A stretch of 64,000 nucleotides of DNA. It comes from Rhizobium sp. NXC24 (GTDB lineage: Bacteria > Pseudomonadota > Alphaproteobacteria > Rhizobiales > Rhizobiaceae). The translations under genes were made by a program, and so were the position numbers. The notes beneath the pieces were generated by a model. The model ran no database searches. It was not told where the DNA came from and saw only the letters and a list, made by a program, of their open reading frames with translations. Positions 513 to 61,531 of the stretch are shown here, piece by piece. The stretch covers positions 1,836,501-1,900,500 of the forward strand of contig NZ_CP024311.1 in NCBI RefSeq assembly GCF_002944315.1, read 5' to 3'. How positions within the stretch are numbered: position 1 is the stretch's first letter; every line of letters begins with the position of its first letter.

Positions 513-1592
513 ATGGCCAATACTGATCTCGCCCCGACCGCAAGTACCACTTTGCCGGTCGTTGCCGCCGATCCGGCGGAAATCGCCCGCATCGGCGACA
601 CCATCGATCTGACCGACCGCGCCGGCATTTCTGTTTATGGCGACCGCGCCCAGCAGTCTGTCTCCGACTATTCTGACCGGATTCTCCGCGAGGTCCGCAA
701 TCGGGATCTCGGCGAAGTTGGCAAGTTGCTGACCGATATCATCATCAAGTCGAAGAAGCTCGACCCGGCATCGCTGAAGGATGAGGGCTTTCTTTCCAAA
801 ATATTCTCGTCGTTCAAGGCCCGCCTGGAGCGCTTCAAGGAGGAATTCGAGGATGTGGCCGGCCAGATCGACCGCATTGGCCTCGAGCTCGACCGGCATA
901 AGGATACGCTGCGCCGCGACATCGCACTTCTCGACGATCTTCACGAGGAGACGAAGCAGTCCATCCTGCAGCTCGACGCCTATGTGCAGGCTGGCAAGAC
1001 TTTCGCAGAGCGTTTTCGCAGTGTCGAACTGCCGAAGTTGAAAAGTGCCGCCGAGGCCGCGGCTGCCAATCCCGGCGGCGGTATGCTGGAGGCTCAGACC
1101 TATCAGGACAGCTTGCAGGCCCTCGACCGATTGGAGAAGCGGGTGTTCTACCTGCAGCAGGCGCGCCAGCTCGGCATTCAGCAATTGCCGCAGATCCGCA
1201 TCGTGCAGGCCGGTGACGAGACGCTGATCGAGAACCTGCAGGCGACGTCGGCGCTGACGGTGCCGGCCTGGAAGCAGAAGATGGTGATCCTGCTTGGGCT
1301 GTCGAGGCAGAAATCAGCGCTTGAGCTGCAGAAGACCGTGACCGACGCCACCAACGACATGATCCGACAGGCGTCCGAGATGATGAAGGACCAGGCGATT
1401 GCCATCGAACAGCAGTCGCAGCGCGGTATCGTCGATATCGATACGCTCGCTGCCGCCAACCGTGACCTGATCGATACGATCAACGGTGTCCTGAAGGTGC
1501 AGGAAGAAGGCCGCAGGAAGCGCGCTCAGGCTGAGCAGCAGATGGAGAAAATGACCATCGATCTCAAGAAAGCGATGATCGAGGCGCGATGA
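513..1592 (+). CDS. TelA/KlaA-like toxic anion resistance family protein
   Basis: Soluble, largely helical protein of 359 residues with no signal peptide or membrane segment, so probably cytoplasmic. The pattern (helical N-terminal region, KLL.DIIIKSKKLDP, FLSKIFSSFKARLERFKEEFEDV, long C-terminal coiled coil ending in a Glu/Lys-rich tail) fits the TelA/KlaA family linked to tellurite and other anion resistance, whose biochemical role is unknown. The ATG at 513 (MANTDLAP) is preferred over an in-frame TTG/ATG-poor extension from 486. It is the first gene of a four-gene operon: its TGA overlaps the next ATG (ATGA at 1589-1592), implying translational coupling. Tellurite resistance itself is not shown by the sequence. 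Confidence 0.85.
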   Translation: MANTDLAPTASTTLPVVAADPAEIARIGDTIDLTDRAGISVYGDRAQQSVSDYSDRILREVRNRDLGEVGKLLTDIIIKSKKLDPASLKDEGFLSKIFSSFKARLERFKEEFEDVAGQIDRIGLELDRHKDTLRRDIALLDDLHEETKQSILQLDAYVQAGKTFAERFRSVELPKLKSAAEAAAANPGGGMLEAQTYQDSLQALDRLEKRVFYLQQARQLGIQQLPQIRIVQAGDETLIENLQATSALTVPAWKQKMVILLGLSRQKSALELQKTVTDATNDMIRQASEMMKDQAIAIEQQSQRGIVDIDTLAAANRDLIDTINGVLKVQEEGRRKRAQAEQQMEKMTIDLKKAMIEAR

Positions 1593-3169
1593 GCGGCATG
1601 ATGATCCGCACACTCCTCACCGGCCTGGCGCTGACGGCAGCTCTAGCCCTGACGGGCTGCAATTCCGGCGCAGGACCGAAGTTCTCGATCGTCTCCGGCT
1701 CGGAAAACACCGTTATCCAGCCGATCGTCGAAGAATTCTGCAAGCAGAAGAGCGCGACCTGCAGCTTCACCTACGAAGGCACGCTGGATATCGGCCTTGC
1801 GCTGCAAAGCAATGAGGGTGTCGAGCAGGACGCGGTCTGGCCGGCATCGAGCGTCTGGGTTGACATGTTCGACACCAAACGCCGGGTGAAGTCCCTGACC
1901 TCGGTGGCGCAGACACCGGTCATCCTCGGCGTGCGCAAATCCAAGGCGCAGGCGCTCGGCTGGATCGGCAAGCCGGTCTTTATGAAGGACATATTGGCGG
2001 CAGTGAAGAGCGGCTCGCTGAAGTTTCTCATGACCTCGGCAACCCAGTCCAATTCAGGCGCGAGCGCCTATTTGGCTATGCTCTCCAGCGCGCTTGGCAA
2101 TAAACCCGTTATCGAGCCGGGCGATCTCGACAAGCCCGACCTCCAAGGCACCGTCAGAGCGTTGCTTGCCGGGGTCGAACGCTCGTCCGGGTCGTCCGGC
2201 TGGCTCGCGGACCTCTACACGGACTCCGCTGGCAAGGGCGTGCTCTACGATGCCATGTGGAATTACGAAGCGGTGCTGAAAGAGACCAACGACAAGCTGG
2301 TCGGTATGGGCAAGGAGCCGCTCTATGCGATCTATCCGGCCGACGGTGTGGCGATTGCGGATTCACCGATCGGCTTTATCGATCATGGACGCGGTCCTGA
2401 GGTCGAGACCTTCTTCAACGAACTCGTTGCCTATCTGCGTTCCGCGCCTGTGCAGAAGCGCATCGCCGATACCGGCCGCCGCATCCCATTGGGAGACGTC
2501 GCGGCCAAAGCGGAGCCGAATTGGAATTTCGATCCGACCCGGTTGGTAACGGCGATCCGCATGCCGGAGCCGGCTGTGATTCGCCAGGCGCTCGATCTCT
2601 ATCAGGGCGCTTTGCGTAAGCCTTCGCTAACAGCTCTTTGTCTCGACTTCTCCGGTTCGATGGGAGGCAAGGGCGAACAGCAATTGCAGGCGGCCATGCA
2701 GTTTCTGTTCAATCCAAATGAAACTGGCAAGGTGCTGGCGCAATGGACGCCGGCGGATCGCATCATGGTCATTCCTTTCGACAGCCGCGTGCGGACGACC
2801 CTTTTGGCGACGGGCGACCCGGCGCAACAGAAGAGCCTTGTCGAGAAGGTGTCGCTGCAGCATGCCGATGGCGGTACCGATATGTACGCCTGCGCAAGCC
2901 GAGCGCTTGATCGCATGAAGGATACCCCAAACCTGTCGTCCTATCTGCCGGCGATCGTCATCATGACCGATGGAAAGTCCGAGGATGCAAGCCGCGATTT
3001 TCTGAGCGAGTGGACGGCAACCAACCCGCATGTGCCGGTCTTCGGCATCACCTTTGGCGACGCCGACAAGTCGCAGCTTGATGCCTTGACCAAAGCGACA
3101 TCGGGGCGTGTATTCGATGGCCGCGGCGATCTCGTCAGCGCGTTCCGCGCTGTGCGTGGTTACAACTAG
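1589..3169 (+). CDS. Lipoprotein with solute-binding-like region and C-terminal VWA domain
   Basis: 526 residues. The N-terminus is a lipoprotein signal (hydrophobic stretch then lipobox LTGC), so the mature protein should be membrane anchored on the periplasmic side. Residues ~30-320 look like a type II solute-binding fold (WPASS near W84, SNSG at 154-157). Residues ~345-526 are a von Willebrand A domain with a complete MIDAS metal site: DFSGS with D353/S355/S357, GGTDMY, and MTDG. VWA domains usually make metal-dependent protein contacts. No permease or ATPase gene is nearby, so a transport role is doubtful. It overlaps the TelA-like gene by 4 bp and lies 7 bp before the XpaC-like gene. Function unknown; the architecture is unusual. 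Confidence 0.85.
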   Translation: MSGMMIRTLLTGLALTAALALTGCNSGAGPKFSIVSGSENTVIQPIVEEFCKQKSATCSFTYEGTLDIGLALQSNEGVEQDAVWPASSVWVDMFDTKRRVKSLTSVAQTPVILGVRKSKAQALGWIGKPVFMKDILAAVKSGSLKFLMTSATQSNSGASAYLAMLSSALGNKPVIEPGDLDKPDLQGTVRALLAGVERSSGSSGWLADLYTDSAGKGVLYDAMWNYEAVLKETNDKLVGMGKEPLYAIYPADGVAIADSPIGFIDHGRGPEVETFFNELVAYLRSAPVQKRIADTGRRIPLGDVAAKAEPNWNFDPTRLVTAIRMPEPAVIRQALDLYQGALRKPSLTALCLDFSGSMGGKGEQQLQAAMQFLFNPNETGKVLAQWTPADRIMVIPFDSRVRTTLLATGDPAQQKSLVEKVSLQHADGGTDMYACASRALDRMKDTPNLSSYLPAIVIMTDGKSEDASRDFLSEWTATNPHVPVFGITFGDADKSQLDALTKATSGRVFDGRGDLVSAFRAVRGYN

Positions 3170-3176
3170 GACAGCA

Positions 3177-3794
3177 ATGCGTAACTGGTTCGGCAATGAC
3201 TGGAATTGGATCGTGGCGGGGCTTGCCGCTGCGATCGTCGTTCCCGTCTTGAGCTTCTTTGCGAAGATGCCATTGTGGATCGCGGCCGTCATCGGTCTGC
3301 TCGTCTTCGCAGGTCTTGTCTTCACTCTGTCGCCGCGCCGGCTTTTCGAAGGTCTGGATGCCAAAGCCATCGGTAGGGGACGTCTCGATTTCGCGCGCGA
3401 TCTCTTGAATGCGGCTGCACCGGCGGCGCAAAGGCTGGAAGCCTCGGCGGACCACATTACCAATAAGGTGACGGCAAAGCGCGTGCGGCATCTGGCCGAA
3501 ATCGCCGCAGATGTCTTTGCCAAGGTGGAGGCGAGCCCGGAAAGCGCCGGCACCGTACGGCGGTTCCTCAGTTACTATCTGCCGCGCGCGGCTGAAGTCG
3601 CCGAGGGTTTCGCCACCCTCGAGGCCAAACGCGTGCCCGACCAAAAGCGATTGCAGGATGTGGAGCTGGTGCTCACCAAGCTTGAGGACGCCTTCGTGCA
3701 CTATTCGGATAGCCTCGTCGACGACAGGCTCGACACGTTGGACACGGAACTGCGCCTCATACAGGCTTCGCTCAAAGAGGATATCGGACGCTGA
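3177..3794 (+). CDS. XpaC-like membrane protein
   Basis: 205 residues. Two closely spaced hydrophobic segments (about 12-30 and 34-52) anchor a cytoplasmic helical region. The C-terminal part (IAADVFAKVEASPESAGTVR, then RFLSYYLPRA) matches the XpaC family, named after 5-bromo-4-chloroindolyl phosphate hydrolysis in Bacillus, a label that says little about mechanism. XpaC and TelA genes are neighbours in many bacteria, which supports the call here. The start at 3177 (MRNWFGND) follows the upstream stop by 7 bp; a longer in-frame reading from 3108 overlaps the VWA gene and is rejected. Its TGA overlaps the next ATG at 3794. Confidence 0.75.
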   Translation: MRNWFGNDWNWIVAGLAAAIVVPVLSFFAKMPLWIAAVIGLLVFAGLVFTLSPRRLFEGLDAKAIGRGRLDFARDLLNAAAPAAQRLEASADHITNKVTAKRVRHLAEIAADVFAKVEASPESAGTVRRFLSYYLPRAAEVAEGFATLEAKRVPDQKRLQDVELVLTKLEDAFVHYSDSLVDDRLDTLDTELRLIQASLKEDIGR

Positions 3795-4900
3795 TGGCCA
3801 TTTCTCGCCGCGCCTTTGGAGTGGGACTTCTTGCTGCCGGCGTCGCCGGCACCGGCGGCTATTTCGCCGCGAAGGACAGGCCGGAGTTCCAGGGGCTACT
3901 CGGCAACCGCACGAAACTCTTCGGTTTCATCGGCGGGGAGAAAGAATCCTTTCTGGCTGACGAGGATGTCGTCGGCGCCCTGCGGGGCTACGGACTGGAT
4001 ATAGATACGCGTGTGGCCGGCTCCGTCGAGATGGTGCGCGAGCAGGCGCTTCTGCAGCAGAACCCCGCTTTCCTCTGGCCATCCTCCTCGATCATGGTCG
4101 ATATCGCCCGGCAGAACGGCATCAAGATCCGCAACAACCGTGTCGTGCTGAATACGCCGGTGGTTGTCTACACCTGGCAGCCGGTGGTCGACGGATTGAT
4201 GAAATCCGGGCTGGTTACCGTGACACCCGCGGGACAGCATCAGCTTGATCTGAAGGCATTGCTCGATGCCGTCCTTGCGGGAACGCACTGGTCCAAGCTC
4301 GGGGTCGCCTCGCTCTACGGGCAGGCGCGCATCGTATCGACCGATCCGAATCGCTCCAATTCCGGCTTCATGTTTGCCGGATTGGTGCTGAGCCTATTTG
4401 CCGGCAACGTCGCGACTGCCGCCGATCTCACACAGTCCGGCGACAAGGCGCAGACGATCTTCCGCAACATGGGCTTCAAGTCGCCGTCATCCGGCAAGCT
4501 TTTCGATCAATATCTGGCCGGCGGTCTTGGTGGCGAACCGATGATCGTCGGCTACGAGAATCAGTTGGTCGAATGGATCATCGCCGATCCCGAACGTTGG
4601 AAGCGCGTTCAAGCGAGCTCGACGGCAAAGCCCGTCGTCCTTTACCCGCATCCGACCGTCTATTCCTCGCATCCTCTGATCGTCGTCGACGAGACCGCCA
4701 ACCGGCTGATGGATGCGCTGACAAGCCCGAAGCTGCAGGAACTTGCCTGGACCAAGCACGGTTTCCGTGGGCCATTGGGCACGGCAACCGGAAATGCACA
4801 TGACGCCATTGCGGGCCTGCTGCCGGACGAAATCGACGCGGTCTTGCCCATGCCGGACGCCAACGTCATGCTGGCGCTACTCAATAAGGTCGCGAGCTGA
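3794..4900 (+). CDS. Tat-exported solute-binding-like protein
   Basis: 368 residues. The N-terminus carries a twin-arginine export signal (SRRAFGVG followed by a hydrophobic Ala/Gly-rich stretch), so the protein is probably exported folded. The rest resembles an ABC-type periplasmic solute-binding fold and shares local motifs with the upstream lipoprotein: LWPSSS at W95 versus VWPASS, and RSNSG ending at G191 versus QSNSG. The two are therefore probably paralogous domains. No cognate permease is encoded nearby. It starts within the stop of the XpaC-like gene (TGATG) and is the last gene of the operon. The ligand is unknown. Confidence 0.75.
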   Translation: MAISRRAFGVGLLAAGVAGTGGYFAAKDRPEFQGLLGNRTKLFGFIGGEKESFLADEDVVGALRGYGLDIDTRVAGSVEMVREQALLQQNPAFLWPSSSIMVDIARQNGIKIRNNRVVLNTPVVVYTWQPVVDGLMKSGLVTVTPAGQHQLDLKALLDAVLAGTHWSKLGVASLYGQARIVSTDPNRSNSGFMFAGLVLSLFAGNVATAADLTQSGDKAQTIFRNMGFKSPSSGKLFDQYLAGGLGGEPMIVGYENQLVEWIIADPERWKRVQASSTAKPVVLYPHPTVYSSHPLIVVDETANRLMDALTSPKLQELAWTKHGFRGPLGTATGNAHDAIAGLLPDEIDAVLPMPDANVMLALLNKVAS

Positions 4901-4934
4901 GGGCAGGGGTCTGTCGCATTTTTTCTGCGCAAGC

Positions 4935-5089
4935 CTTGCATTCTCGGTAAATCGAATGTATGGGCAGCCGCATTCCACACGTAAGGCATGGGATTGTCCG
5001 GGAGAAATCCGGATCGTTCCGCCCGGTGGCTTCCTCGAAGAGGAGGCTGTTCGCCTTGCGGAGGTTCAACCGGAAAAGGAGTCAAAGGC
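4935..5089 (+). promoter_or_regulatory. rpsB promoter candidate and structured 5' leader
   Basis: A CTTGCA at 4935-4940 and GTATGG at 4958-4963 are 17 bp apart and fit a rhizobial housekeeping promoter. The implied leader of about 120 nt is GC rich and can fold: GCTTCCTC at 5029-5036 pairs with GAGGAGGC at 5040-5047 (one G-U) over a 3-nt loop. A strong AAAGGAG ribosome binding site follows at about 5076. Ribosomal protein S2 leaders are autoregulatory in other bacteria; that role is an inference here. Confidence 0.4.
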
Positions 5090-5857
5090 ATGGCATTGCC
5101 TGATTTTTCTATGCGTCAGCTTCTGGAAGCTGGTGTTCACTTCGGCCATCAGACGCATCGCTGGAACCCGAAGATGAAGCCGTACATCTTCGGCGATCGT
5201 AACAACATCCACATCATCGACCTCGCCCAGACGGTTCCGTTGCTGAGCCGCGCTCTGCAGGTTGTCAGCGACACCGTTGCCCGTGGCGGCCGCGTCCTGT
5301 TCGTCGGCACCAAGCGCCAGGCGTCCGAACTGATCGCCGACAGCGCCAAGCGCTCGGCTCAGTACTACGTCAACGCCCGCTGGCTCGGCGGCATGATGAC
5401 CAACTGGAAGACGATTTCGAATTCCATTCAGCGTCTGCGCAAGCTCGACGAAATCCTCAACGGCGAAGCCCAGGGCTTCACCAAGAAGGAACGTCTGAAC
5501 CTTGAGCGCGAGCGCGAAAAGCTGGACAAGGCTCTCGGCGGTATCCGCGATATGGGCGGCACTCCGGACCTGATGTTCATCATCGACACCAACAAGGAAA
5601 AGATCGCGATCGACGAAGCCAAGCGCCTCGGCATTCCGGTCGTCGCCATCATCGACTCGAACTGCGATCCGGACCTGATCGACTATCCGATCCCGGGCAA
5701 CGACGACGCTTCGCGCGCGATCGCTCTCTACTGCGACCTGATCTCGCGCGCTGCCATCGACGGCATCGCCCGCCAGCAGAGCGCATCCGGCCGCGACCTT
5801 GGCGCTTCCGTCGAAGCTCCGGTCGAGCCGACTCTGGTGGACGGCACCGAAGCCTGA
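5090..5857 (+). CDS. rpsB: 30S ribosomal protein S2
   Basis: 255 residues, the usual length in rhizobia. The N-terminus [20 protein letters not shown] and the segments [22 protein letters not shown] and [12 protein letters not shown] are diagnostic of uS2. S2 joins the small subunit late and is needed for S1 binding. The ATG at 5090 is chosen because it has an AAAGGAG Shine-Dalgarno sequence and matches the conserved start; an earlier in-frame ATG at 4988 is in the leader. It is followed by tsf, the classic rpsB-tsf pair, after a 272-bp spacer with two hairpins. Confidence 0.98.
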
Positions 5858-5868
5858 TCGCGTCTTGT

Positions 5869-5890
5869 GGCGGACAAAAGCTTGTCCGCC
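5869..5890 (+). terminator. Perfect hairpin just after rpsB
   Basis: GGCGGACAA at 5869-5877 pairs perfectly with TTGTCCGCC at 5882-5890 around a 4-nt loop, 11 bp past the rpsB stop. No U-tract follows, so this could be an mRNA-stabilising or processing hairpin and not a terminator. Confidence 0.4.
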
Positions 5891-5910
5891 CGAGCGTATT
5901 GATATCCGGG

Positions 5911-5958
5911 ATAAGGCCGTTTGCGACTTCTAGGAGTTCGAGCGGCCTTATCACGTTT
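5911..5958 (+). terminator. Intrinsic terminator or attenuator between rpsB and tsf
   Basis: ATAAGGCCG at 5911-5919 pairs with CGGCCTTAT at 5943-5951, with partial inner pairing, and a run of five T follows at about 5955-5959. This fits a partial terminator that lowers read-through from rpsB into tsf. Confidence 0.5.
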
Positions 5959-6129
5959 TTGGTAACGCCTCGCCTGGGCGGAAAATCCAGGCACGTTCCA
6001 AACAGAATTCCATAGTATGACGCTGCTTCATAACGCTGTCATACTTACGGGTACATTTCGTCCCTCAAATCGGTGCCTCTTCGGCTTAACGCCGTTTGCC
6101 GCACCGTATGAACCGACAAGAGGAAGCTT

Positions 6130-7056
6130 ATGACCGAGATTACGGCTGCACTGGTGAAAGAACTGCGCGAAAAGTCTGGCGCAGGCATGATGGACTGCAA
6201 GAAGGCGCTGACGGAGACGAACGGGGATATCGAAGCCGCGATCGACTGGCTGCGCGCCAAGGGCATCTCCAAGGCCGACAAGAAGTCCGGCCGCACCGCC
6301 GCTGAAGGCTTGGTCGCCATTGCCGGCGCCGGTCACAAGGCCGTCGTCGTCGAGCTCAACTCTGAAACTGACTTCGTTGCCCGTAACGATGCCTTCCAGG
6401 ATCTTGCTCGCGGCATCGCCGAAGTTGCGCTGTCCACCAACGGCACTGTCGAAGCCGTTTCGGCTGCGACCTATCCCGCCTCCGGCAAGCCGGTCGCCGA
6501 CACCATCAAGGACGCGATCGCAACCATCGGCGAAAACATGGCGCTTCGTCGTGCGGTCAAGTTGGAAGTTGAGCACGGCGTCGTGGCGACCTACATTCAC
6601 AACGCTGCTGGCGACGGTATCGGCAAGCTGGGCGTTCTGGTTGCCCTGAAGTCGGTCGGTGACAAGGCCGTTCTGACGTCGATCGGCCGCCAGGTTGCCA
6701 TGCACATTGCTGCTACGAACCCGCTCGCCATCCGTCCGGAAGAAGTTGACGCTGCCGTCGCCGAACGCGAACGTAACGTCTTCATCGAGCAGTCCCGCGC
6801 CTCCGGCAAGCCGGACAACATCATCGAAAAGATGGTCGAAGGCCGCATGCGCAAGTTCTTCGAAGAAGTCGCTCTTCTGTCGCAGGCTTTCGTCATTAAT
6901 CCGGACCTGACCGTCGCCGCTGCCCTCAAGGAAGCTGAAAAGACCGCCGGCGCGCCGATCGAAATCACCGGCATGGCTCGTCTGCTTCTCGGCGAAGGCG
7001 TCGAGAAGGAAGAGACCGACTTCGCTGCCGAAGTCGCCGCTGCCGCCAAGGGCTGA
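6130..7056 (+). CDS. tsf: Translation elongation factor Ts
   Basis: 308 residues. EF-Ts is the nucleotide exchange factor that regenerates EF-Tu-GTP. The N-terminal UBA-like domain is clear ([21 protein letters not shown]), as is the core signature GLVAIAG...[15 protein letters not shown] near residues 60-85. The C-terminal dimerisation region includes [21 protein letters not shown], typical of the family. It lies between rpsB and pyrH on the same strand. The ATG at 6130 follows AAGAGGAAGC, a good ribosome binding site. Confidence 0.98.
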
Positions 7057-7087
7057 TCAACGAATTCATTTCGTCTGTTGACGAAAC

Positions 7088-7119
7088 GAAACCATATCCC
7101 AGATAGGTGAAACCATATC
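7088..7119 (+). repeat. Direct repeat GAAACCATATC x2, 21 bp apart
   Basis: The 11-mer GAAACCATATC occurs at 7088-7098 and 7109-7119, a period of 21 bp or two helical turns, in the tsf-pyrH spacer. A tandem binding site or simple duplication are both possible. Confidence 0.4.
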
Positions 7120-7132
7120 AGGGGAAACCCGT

Positions 7133-7158
7133 GGGCATCGCGTGACAACGCGGTGCCC
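7133..7158 (+). other. Hairpin upstream of pyrH
   Basis: GGGCATCGCG at 7133-7142 pairs with CGCGGTGCCC at 7149-7158 (one G-U pair) around a 6-nt loop. No U-tract follows. It lies in the tsf-pyrH spacer, 55 bp before the pyrH start, and may be a processing or leader structure. Confidence 0.4.
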
Positions 7159-7212
7159 TTCGTGTATCCGGCATTCACAATTATTACCCCGCGATCACTT
7201 CAAGGAGCGACA

Positions 7213-7932
7213 ATGTCCCAGCCGATCTACAAGCGCGTATTGCTCAAGGCCTCCGGCGAAGCTCTGATGGGCAGCCAGGGGTTCGGTATCGACGTTACCG
7301 TCGCTGACCGCATTGCATCCGATATTGCCGCAGCGCGCGAAATGGGTGTCGAGGTCGGCGTCGTCGTCGGCGGCGGCAATATCTTCCGTGGCGTTGCCGT
7401 GGCCTCCAAGGGCGGAGACCGCGTGACCGGCGACCACATGGGCATGCTCGGCACCGTCATCAATGCTCTGGCGCTGGCCACCTCGCTGCGCAAGCTGGAT
7501 ATCGATACAGTGGTGCTCTCAGCCATTTCCATGCCGGAGATCTGCGAGAGTTTCTCGCAGCGTGCGACGCTCTATCATCTGTCGCTCGGCCGCGTGGTGA
7601 TCTTTGCTGGCGGCACCGGCAATCCCTTCTTCACCACCGATTCCGCCGCAGCGCTGCGTGCCGCCGAAATGGGTGCGGAAGCGATCTTCAAGGGAACGCA
7701 GGTCGATGGCATCTATTCCGCCGATCCGAAGAAGTTCCCGGACGCCGAGCGTTTCGAACATTTGACCCACAGCCAAGTGCTGGAAAAGGGCCTCGCCGTC
7801 ATGGATGTGGCCGCCGTGGCGCTTGCACGGGAAAATTCAATTCCGATCATCGTCTTTTCCATTCATGAAAAGGGCGGTTTCGCAGAAATCTTGACCGGCG
7901 GCGGTCGTAAGACCATCGTATCCGACAATTGA
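7213..7932 (+). CDS. pyrH: UMP kinase
   Basis: 239 residues. Phosphorylates UMP to UDP with ATP in pyrimidine nucleotide synthesis; the bacterial enzyme is a hexamer of the amino-acid kinase fold. Visible motifs are KASGEAL (phosphate loop Lys), [26 protein letters not shown] and [13 protein letters not shown], all diagnostic. The ATG at 7213 is chosen for its AAGGAG at 7202-7207 and family start; an in-frame ATG at 7153 lies in the spacer. The gene sits in the conserved tsf-pyrH-frr order, 56 bp before frr. Confidence 0.97.
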
Positions 7933-7988
7933 CGTTCCTGTGGCACCGGGCCTTCCCGGCGCCGCCTATTACACGGGAGTATAAAAAC

Positions 7989-60993: not shown

Positions 60994-61456
60994 TGGCGTC
61001 CCCGACCCAGTGCCGGCCTCAACCTGATTCTGAACTGATGTCTCAAGAATTCAGGCGTCAAGCATTCAAAAAATCATCCTATCATACCGTGGTAACATTC
61101 TGAGGCAGTGATTGCCGAGTCAGTCATTTGAATGAGAAAAGCGTAGTTGCCACTCTAAAGGTGTGCGGCAAATCTCCCGAAAAGGCAGGTATAACCTATA
61201 AGATAATCCTTAAATTGAGGAATTCTGCGGTTTCCTATCATCAAAACGACCAATCCTTGCTTTTTTCGCGAAGAAAGACGCGGCTTCCTATGCTGATCTT
61301 CCCGATTTGCGCATCGACACAGGCAGCTTTCACCACTTCGACATGCGGAAAAGCGTTGTACGTCGTCGTAACCGCGATTTTATGGGTTGACCGCAATAGG
61401 GCGTCTGCATATGTTCCGCGCACTTCCAGCCGGGGTGCAATCATCCGCGGACGGGG
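60994..61456. other. 463-bp region before tRNA-Lys
   Basis: No strong gene. A minus-strand frame at 61241-61444 (67 codons, ARLEVRGTYADALLRS-like start MIAPRLEVRG) has acceptable composition but no convincing ribosome binding site or family match, so it is left as a possibility only. The tRNA promoter presumably lies here. Confidence 0.4.
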
Positions 61457-61531
61457 AGAGCGTAGCTCAGCCGGTAGAGCAACTGACTTTTAATCAGTAG
61501 GTCATGGGTTCGAATCCCATCGCTCTCACCA
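61457..61531 (+). tRNA. tRNA-Lys (anticodon TTT)
   Basis: Full cloverleaf: acceptor GAGAGCG (61457-61463) with CGCTCTC (61521-61527), D-arm GCTCAGCCGGTAGAGC, anticodon arm ACTGA/TCAGT with TTT at 61490-61492, T-arm GGGTTCGAATCCC, discriminator A and encoded CCA (61529-61531). Reads AAA and AAG Lys codons. Confidence 0.98.

Follow-up and report, generated by a model that had tools for sequence, protein, structure and literature searches.

The XpaC and TelA families are encoded as neighbours in Bacillota, where several papers tie them to envelope stress. Bacillus subtilis xpaC-yaaN counts among the core sigma-W operons (PMC3498285). A table in a paper on the CesSR system of Lactococcus lactis lists an XpaC-like gene (10.3) and telA1 (3.44) as raised (PMC3139573). 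In Listeria, lmo1966 and lmo1967 are responsive to garvicin KS, and mutation of lmo1967 raises sensitivity to nisin 4-fold and to tellurite 2-fold (PMC12791056, citing Collins 2010). The terms TelA and XpaC were not found in the available text of two phage-shock surveys (PMC11237479, PMC9239133). The present analysis concerns a four-gene cassette on the chromosome of Rhizobium sp. NXC24, which carries the same two families as neighbours. The Bacillota version is a two-gene pair (xpaC-yaaN; lmo1966-1967) and, in the single locus examined (L230, a Cytobacillus plasmid), it lacks both of the additional components of the Rhizobium cassette, a solute-binding protein (SBP) and a predicted lipoprotein in which an SBP is fused to a VWA domain. 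The XpaC and TelA genes of Rhizobium share one operon with the VWA gene between them. In the Cytobacillus plasmid, the XpaC-TelA pair lies beside a convergent VWA-MoxR pair (2712-7980). The cassette is located at 513-4900 on the forward strand of the window, the whole analysed stretch of 64,000 nucleotides (contig NZ_CP024311.1, positions 1,836,501 to 1,900,500; contig 1 of a 7.3 Mb genome), between eipB and rpsB. It is a real and apparently uncharacterised system, and consists of the following genes.

513..1592, + strand: telA-like gene (359 aa; PF05816; no transmembrane segment)
1589..3169, + strand: gene for the predicted SBP-VWA lipoprotein (526 aa; SBP_bac_11 and VWA_2 in Pfam)
3177..3794, + strand: XpaC-like gene (205 aa; PF10112, Halogen_Hydrol)
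3794..4900, + strand: second SBP gene (368 aa; predicted N-terminal anchor or signal)

The tight coupling of these genes had been described in an earlier note made from the DNA letters, and both the frames and the junctions are confirmed: telA and the lipoprotein gene overlap as ATGA, 7 bases separate the lipoprotein gene from the XpaC-like gene, and the stop of the latter overlaps the start of the second SBP gene as TGATG. An alternative in-frame GTG start of the telA-like gene is possible at 486. The same note had set, as a check beforehand, the conservation of the unit beyond close relatives. Conservation was assessed with four profiles, each drawn from four to five sequences of the window and plasmid copies, so that those copies match by construction. 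The profiles were applied to the open frames of 108 stretches, consisting of 107 loci longer than 8 kb and the window, with 48 shorter loci excluded. These stretches include many close relatives and some genomes twice; the relatives from the genome collection are the best 80 of 331, all 80 of them Alphaproteobacteria by title, and non-proteobacterial copies are known from plasmid records only. All four proteins are recognised in 96 of the 108 stretches, and the unit is kept in Alpha- and Betaproteobacteria and in an actinomycete, so that it passes the check set in the note: its conservation reaches well outside close relatives. Each of the four genes has a ratio of nonsynonymous to synonymous substitution rates (dN/dS) of 0.04-0.18 against four relatives, and all four are thus under purifying selection where present. 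The joint presence of the genes together with these ratios indicates that the cassette is more than a chance assembly. The pairwise identities of the four proteins are also correlated (r 0.81-0.97 over 23 loci, a value that carries no control for the organism tree).

In the other 12 stretches the profiles do not recognise all four proteins. Diverged members occupy the empty slots in L139, L140 and L141, with Pfam backing the XpaC of L139 and L140 and the TelA of L140, and the XpaC of L141 being assigned by eye. L128 stops at a contig edge, and L024, L025, L150 and L151 hold matches to the VWA profile only. One of these, the Thiodictyon plasmid L024 (6704-10735), encodes a more distant SBP-VWA protein; the next genes code for another SBP and for a small third protein, and TelA is absent. 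In Mesorhizobium loti UFLA 01-765 (L125) the VWA gene falls into two overlapping frames and is therefore broken or misassembled.

Gene order varies in a restricted manner. Almost every alphaproteobacterial copy examined has the order TelA-VWA-XpaC-SBP. Sphaerotilus, Variovorax, the actinomycete Nonomuraea and two proteobacteria from other classes (L147 and L148) have SBP-TelA-VWA-XpaC, and one alphaproteobacterium (L140) has VWA-XpaC-SBP-TelA. These three orders are circular permutations of a single cycle. A Deinococcus copy reads SBP-VWA-XpaC, its first gene coding for the SBP and not for TelA.

The co-occurrence of the families extends to genomes sampled across the class, in which the full-length SBP-VWA fusion is found in 8 of 289 genomes, counting that of Rhizobium sp. 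NXC24 itself; 12 further genomes matched only through the VWA domain of other proteins. Across the phylum, 9 of 398 genomes pass E 1e-25, with the same genome counted. TelA is present in all 8 fusion genomes versus 25/289 above the cut-off overall, and adjoins the fusion in 7; the corresponding values for PF10112 are 7/8 and 17/289. Of the 25 TelA genomes, 17 have no SBP-VWA fusion. XpaC-TelA is regarded as the more common core, to which the periplasmic part was added. The set also appears to have moved as a whole between phyla: the VWA protein of Nonomuraea is 43-45% identical to those of two proteobacteria (L020, L147), to which the window protein is 32-33% identical, and the TelA identities to the same loci are 53-54% for Nonomuraea versus 25-27% for the window, a pattern that points to such a transfer. 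Among 72,556 plasmid records, 612 carry TelA relatives; Acinetobacter accounts for 224 of the 612 and Enterobacter for 182.

Within the genus, the cassette is frequently missing. The second SBP is matched in 67 of 148 genus genomes, 58 times at full length and nine times in part (one cut by a contig end, two in two pieces, and six C-terminal remnants). The full fusion is present in 14 of 37 same-genus genomes and absent in 23. No trace of the four proteins lies within 1.5 kb of rpsB in 20 of these 23, two retain an SBP remnant (one weak, E 2.7e-6), and one has an SBP gene cut by a contig end; eipB adjoins rpsB in 22 of them. The remnants and absences at this junction indicate that the cassette has been lost repeatedly at one site in Rhizobium.

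The TelA protein matches PF05816 with E 2.5e-94 (316.5 bits versus a curated cut-off of 30; model positions 3-331 of 332), and the XpaC-like protein matches PF10112 with E 3.7e-29 (102.5 bits versus 29.8; positions 2-190 of 191). A hydropathy scan detects no membrane segment in the window TelA, nor in 82 of 83 sequences. In the window XpaC it resolves a single segment at residues 33-51; the putative N-terminal hairpin is our own reading of a region in which the scan separates one segment only. In searches against sequences in the PDB, TelA matches at E 0.35-0.84 look like chance and XpaC has no match. The features within the other proteins are as follows.

1649..1660, + strand: lipobox LTGC (Cys24; +2 residue Asn), by lipobox pattern
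1670..2620, + strand: predicted class II SBP domain within the lipoprotein (residues 28-344, approximately; motifs SNSG, 2048-2059, and GSSG, 2189-2200)
2618..3166, + strand: VWA domain of the lipoprotein (about residues 344-526)
2645-2659, 2876-2878 and 2969-2971, + strand: predicted metal ion-dependent adhesion site (MIDAS) residues D353-S355-S357, T430 and D461
about 3204-3329, + strand: hydrophobic N-terminal region of the XpaC-like protein, read as a hairpin
3803..3817, + strand: SRRAF, Tat-type twin-arginine motif of the second SBP, by pattern match

The proposal of a MIDAS-bearing lipoprotein fused to an SBP-like fold holds at the level of domains, with Pfam matches to SBP_bac_11 (E 7.5e-11) and VWA_2 (E 1.9e-9). 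The lipobox pattern makes it a predicted lipoprotein; it recurs in 83 of 85 relatives, and the other two have the cysteine in a near-lipobox. The +2 residue is N in 54, D in 15, S in 9 and G in 5, with none found in 2. The MIDAS is complete (DxSxS, T, D), its five residues are invariant (7/7), and it is a predicted metal site. In the second SBP, a twin-arginine motif ahead of a hydrophobic stretch makes the protein a candidate substrate of twin-arginine translocation (Tat), as previously suggested, and SRRx[FLIV] is present in 79 of 84 SBP sequences. It is missing from the four plasmid copies that come from outside the Alphaproteobacteria and from one open reading frame truncated at its N terminus; the motif therefore marks the alphaproteobacterial branch and not the entire family, a correction to the earlier note.

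Both the lipoprotein and the second SBP have a class II two-lobe SBP fold in their predicted structures (for the lipoprotein, an AlphaFold2 model with a mean predicted local distance difference test, pLDDT, of 84). The second SBP reaches SBP_bac_11 with E 0.0032 only, under the cut-off, and the earlier note, which was correct about the fold in the lipoprotein, had overlooked that the second SBP is its paralog. Profile comparison decided the paralogy, with the SNSG, SSG, YE and YP motifs in register, whereas BLASTP between the two reached just E 0.021. In structure, sulfate-binding proteins and 6lkg, whose title calls it a two-component signalling SBP, are among the nearest relatives of the SBP halves. 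The PDB sequence search with the SBP half of the lipoprotein returned P5PA 6wce (E 0.00082) and 6lkg (E 0.0075), and the lipoprotein profile returned VWA proteins. The single lipoprotein (P0002) and second SBP (P0004) sequences gave no match, and the second-SBP profile gave one weak, unrelated match.

Signalling SBPs such as AioX act with a histidine kinase. The cassette differs from these systems (6lkg; AioX) in that no histidine kinase is present in the unit. Other described systems share single features with it. On IncP and IncHI2 plasmids, the kla (telAB) operon, in which KlaB is a TelA protein, has tight gene overlaps like those of the cassette. KlaA is itself of the TelA family (36.4 and 39.5 bits versus 30 in L228 and L229, of IncP and IncHI2), and KlaC has a Pfam match to neither XpaC nor SBP. 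Equating the cassette with the klaABC tellurite operon was rejected by gene content, as judged from a comparison of sequence profiles. The link of TelA and XpaC to stress and to Ter-type systems (TerF, TerY), also raised previously, is supported for stress by the envelope-stress data on the two families. One of ten other TelA neighbourhoods, L227 (3178-6056), where a gene with a vWA-TerF-like domain directly follows the TelA gene, is in keeping with the link to Ter. In the cassette, however, the VWA domain resides on an SBP-fused lipoprotein, and the unit contains no further Ter gene. XpaC and TelA of the same families (PF10112, PF05816) are adjacent in a further alphaproteobacterial arrangement (L221), which has an SPFH-GYF protein as the neighbour in place of SBPs. 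In L219 and L221, the neighbours of XpaC-TelA are a zinc-ribbon protein and an SPFH (Band_7_1) protein that has a GYF_2 domain. Because long frames were chosen, TelA was missed in four of the ten neighbourhoods (L218, L220, L225, L226), so that the SPFH link rests on two. This arrangement recalls, in our own likening, the pspA-ydjG-ydjH-ydjI operon of B. subtilis, which is named in PMC3498285.

The favoured explanation, held tentatively and at somewhat less than even confidence, is that the cassette is an envelope-spanning stress module in which XpaC-TelA is joined to a periplasmic front end that reads a ligand. Going by the predicted signals and folds, the SBPs and the metal-site domain would lie external to the inner membrane, with XpaC and TelA at or beneath it. 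The inner part would be XpaC, seated in the inner membrane and reaching into the cytoplasm with one domain, and its soluble partner TelA. The outer part would comprise the two paralogous SBPs, one fused to the MIDAS-bearing VWA domain and tethered by lipid, and the other held by its N-terminal helix. The duplication of an SBP, with a VWA domain on one copy, suggests the same or a related ligand and mutual recognition. A single class of periplasmic ligand, small and likely anionic, would probably be read by both SBPs. Closure of the clefts and a divalent metal in the MIDAS may make or break contact between the lipoprotein and the anchored SBP, which would relay the contact state to XpaC and hence to TelA, and TelA may then protect or remodel the membrane. 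The topology, ligand class, contacts and direction of signalling in this module are all inference.

The stress module is supported by the conservation of the unit (96/108 stretches) and its three circularly permuted orders, the co-occurrence with TelA and PF10112, the correlated identities, the paralogy of the SBPs, the invariance of the MIDAS and the structural kinship of the SBP halves with sulfate-binding proteins and 6lkg. By analogy with relatives, the sigma-W, CesSR and lmo1967 data and the two XpaC-TelA pairs beside SPFH are consistent with an envelope-stress role of the XpaC-TelA half. Several observations count against the module. XpaC seems to offer little periplasmic surface. Four stretches (L023, L116, L136 and L149) have the SBP and VWA genes with no TelA within the stretch; TelA in the genome of L136 sits on a different contig. 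The frequent loss in Rhizobium indicates that the cassette is not essential. Ferric, thiamin, polyamine and sugar-phosphate SBPs score nearly as high as sulfate-binding proteins, and thus the structural comparison does not single out a ligand class. Finally, ABC (ATP-binding cassette) ATPase or permease genes are present in the fetched flanks of 7 of 21 lineages, leaving room for a role in transport. A more specific form of the module, and a distinctly speculative one, is a trans-envelope receptor that acts without a kinase, in which the paralogous SBP pair, with one member lipid-tethered and bearing the MIDAS and the other anchored in the inner membrane, would form a ligand- and metal-gated periplasmic clasp driving XpaC and the cytoplasmic TelA.

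Among the alternatives, the one that survives best, although unlikely, is periplasmic capture, in which a toxic oxyanion or metal is bound and retained by the twin SBPs and the metal site, TelA and XpaC handle the membrane damage, and the system buffers without passing a signal. The twin SBPs with no permease in the unit are in keeping with capture, as are the name of the TelA family and the weak effect on tellurite sensitivity in Listeria (PMC12791056). Stoichiometric binding by two anchored SBPs would, however, be a feeble defence, and PMC12791056, PMC3498285 and PMC3139573 tie XpaC-TelA to envelope stress more than to tellurite.

A helper of transport is less probable still. Here the SBPs, which are classical transport parts, would pass their ligand to an ABC permease encoded nearby or elsewhere, and the cassette would regulate or load the permease. 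No constant fifth gene is found among 94 loci of 21 lineages (frames of at least 110 aa), and the claim that the unit has no permease or ATPase is upheld: no such gene is constant in these loci, and none lies between eipB and rpsB in the window. The ABC genes in the seven lineages raise the odds of a transport link slightly. In Devosia insulae (L117, 2-2693), ABC permease frames immediately precede TelA and share its strand, with similar frames near by in L120, and in L149 an ABC ATPase is downstream. These genes are of differing kinds (26-42% identity between lineages), at differing distances and on different strands, and ABC genes are common generally. The count of 7/21, raw and taken without a background rate, neither proves nor excludes a link to transport. 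A LysR-like regulator also recurs in the flanks of three lineages, and a separate frame is common to Devosia and Rhizobium relatives.

VWA subunits of chelatases, which carry a MIDAS, act as metal-dependent chaperones. A role in maturation, in which the VWA-SBP protein would chaperone a periplasmic client such as a metalloprotein or an envelope protein, draws on this precedent and on the XpaC-TelA pair beside MoxR-VWA in the Cytobacillus plasmid; it is improbable, with no recurrent AAA+ ATPase or client enzyme in the neighbourhood. A mobile defence cassette against phage or envelope-attacking toxins is the least credible explanation, for its patchiness, its apparent transfer between phyla, its presence on megaplasmids and the Wadjet-like genes adjoining it in Variovorax are set against a search with PADLOC 2.0.0 in which none of the four proteins had a match at E values up to 1, and against a fixed, repeatedly decaying site in Rhizobium next to rpsB (51 of the 108 stretches), unlike that of a defence island. 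On the Variovorax plasmid (L021, 1-15464) the cassette separates flotillin and YqiJ-like genes from the Wadjet-like genes.

The surroundings of the cassette in the window are as follows.

18-293, directly upstream of telA: EipB-like gene, 3' end (PF08904, a family named for envelope integrity)
4902..4925, + strand: hairpin and T run just 3' of the last stop, a possible terminator (consensus scan)
4976-5089, downstream of the cassette: match to the rpsB leader RNA (RF01815; 45.9 bits versus a cut-off of 40), followed by rpsB
61456-61528: tRNA gene (RF00005)

Sites with a hairpin and T run are not scarcer in shuffled sequence (3 found versus a shuffle mean of 4.4), and a promoter scan returned one site, at chance level. 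Among the best 80 of 331 relatives, the named ones nearest by the VWA protein (94-95%) are R. leucaenae, Rhizobium sp. SEMIA4064 and Rhizobium sp. BK313.

Overall, the interpretation in the earlier note is partly supported, with sensing or chelation a putative role, and its suggestion of an undescribed system agrees with the open-access literature, in which no paper on the four-gene set was found; a survey of Ter systems beyond that reach may mention related neighbourhoods, which limits the claim of novelty. A Variovorax plasmid record already labels the fusion a 'substrate-binding and VWA domain-containing protein', so that the fusion protein has been recorded but apparently not studied.

TelA and XpaC are widespread and matter for the tolerance of membrane-active agents in Bacillota, and their mechanism is poorly understood. 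A version wired to two periplasmic binding proteins offers a handle, as binding proteins have ligands that can be found and solved. The clasp receptor, if true, would give the orphan TelA family a defined stimulus. If the front end does sense a ligand, the stimulus of a TelA system would become directly testable in a plant symbiont that is easy to handle.

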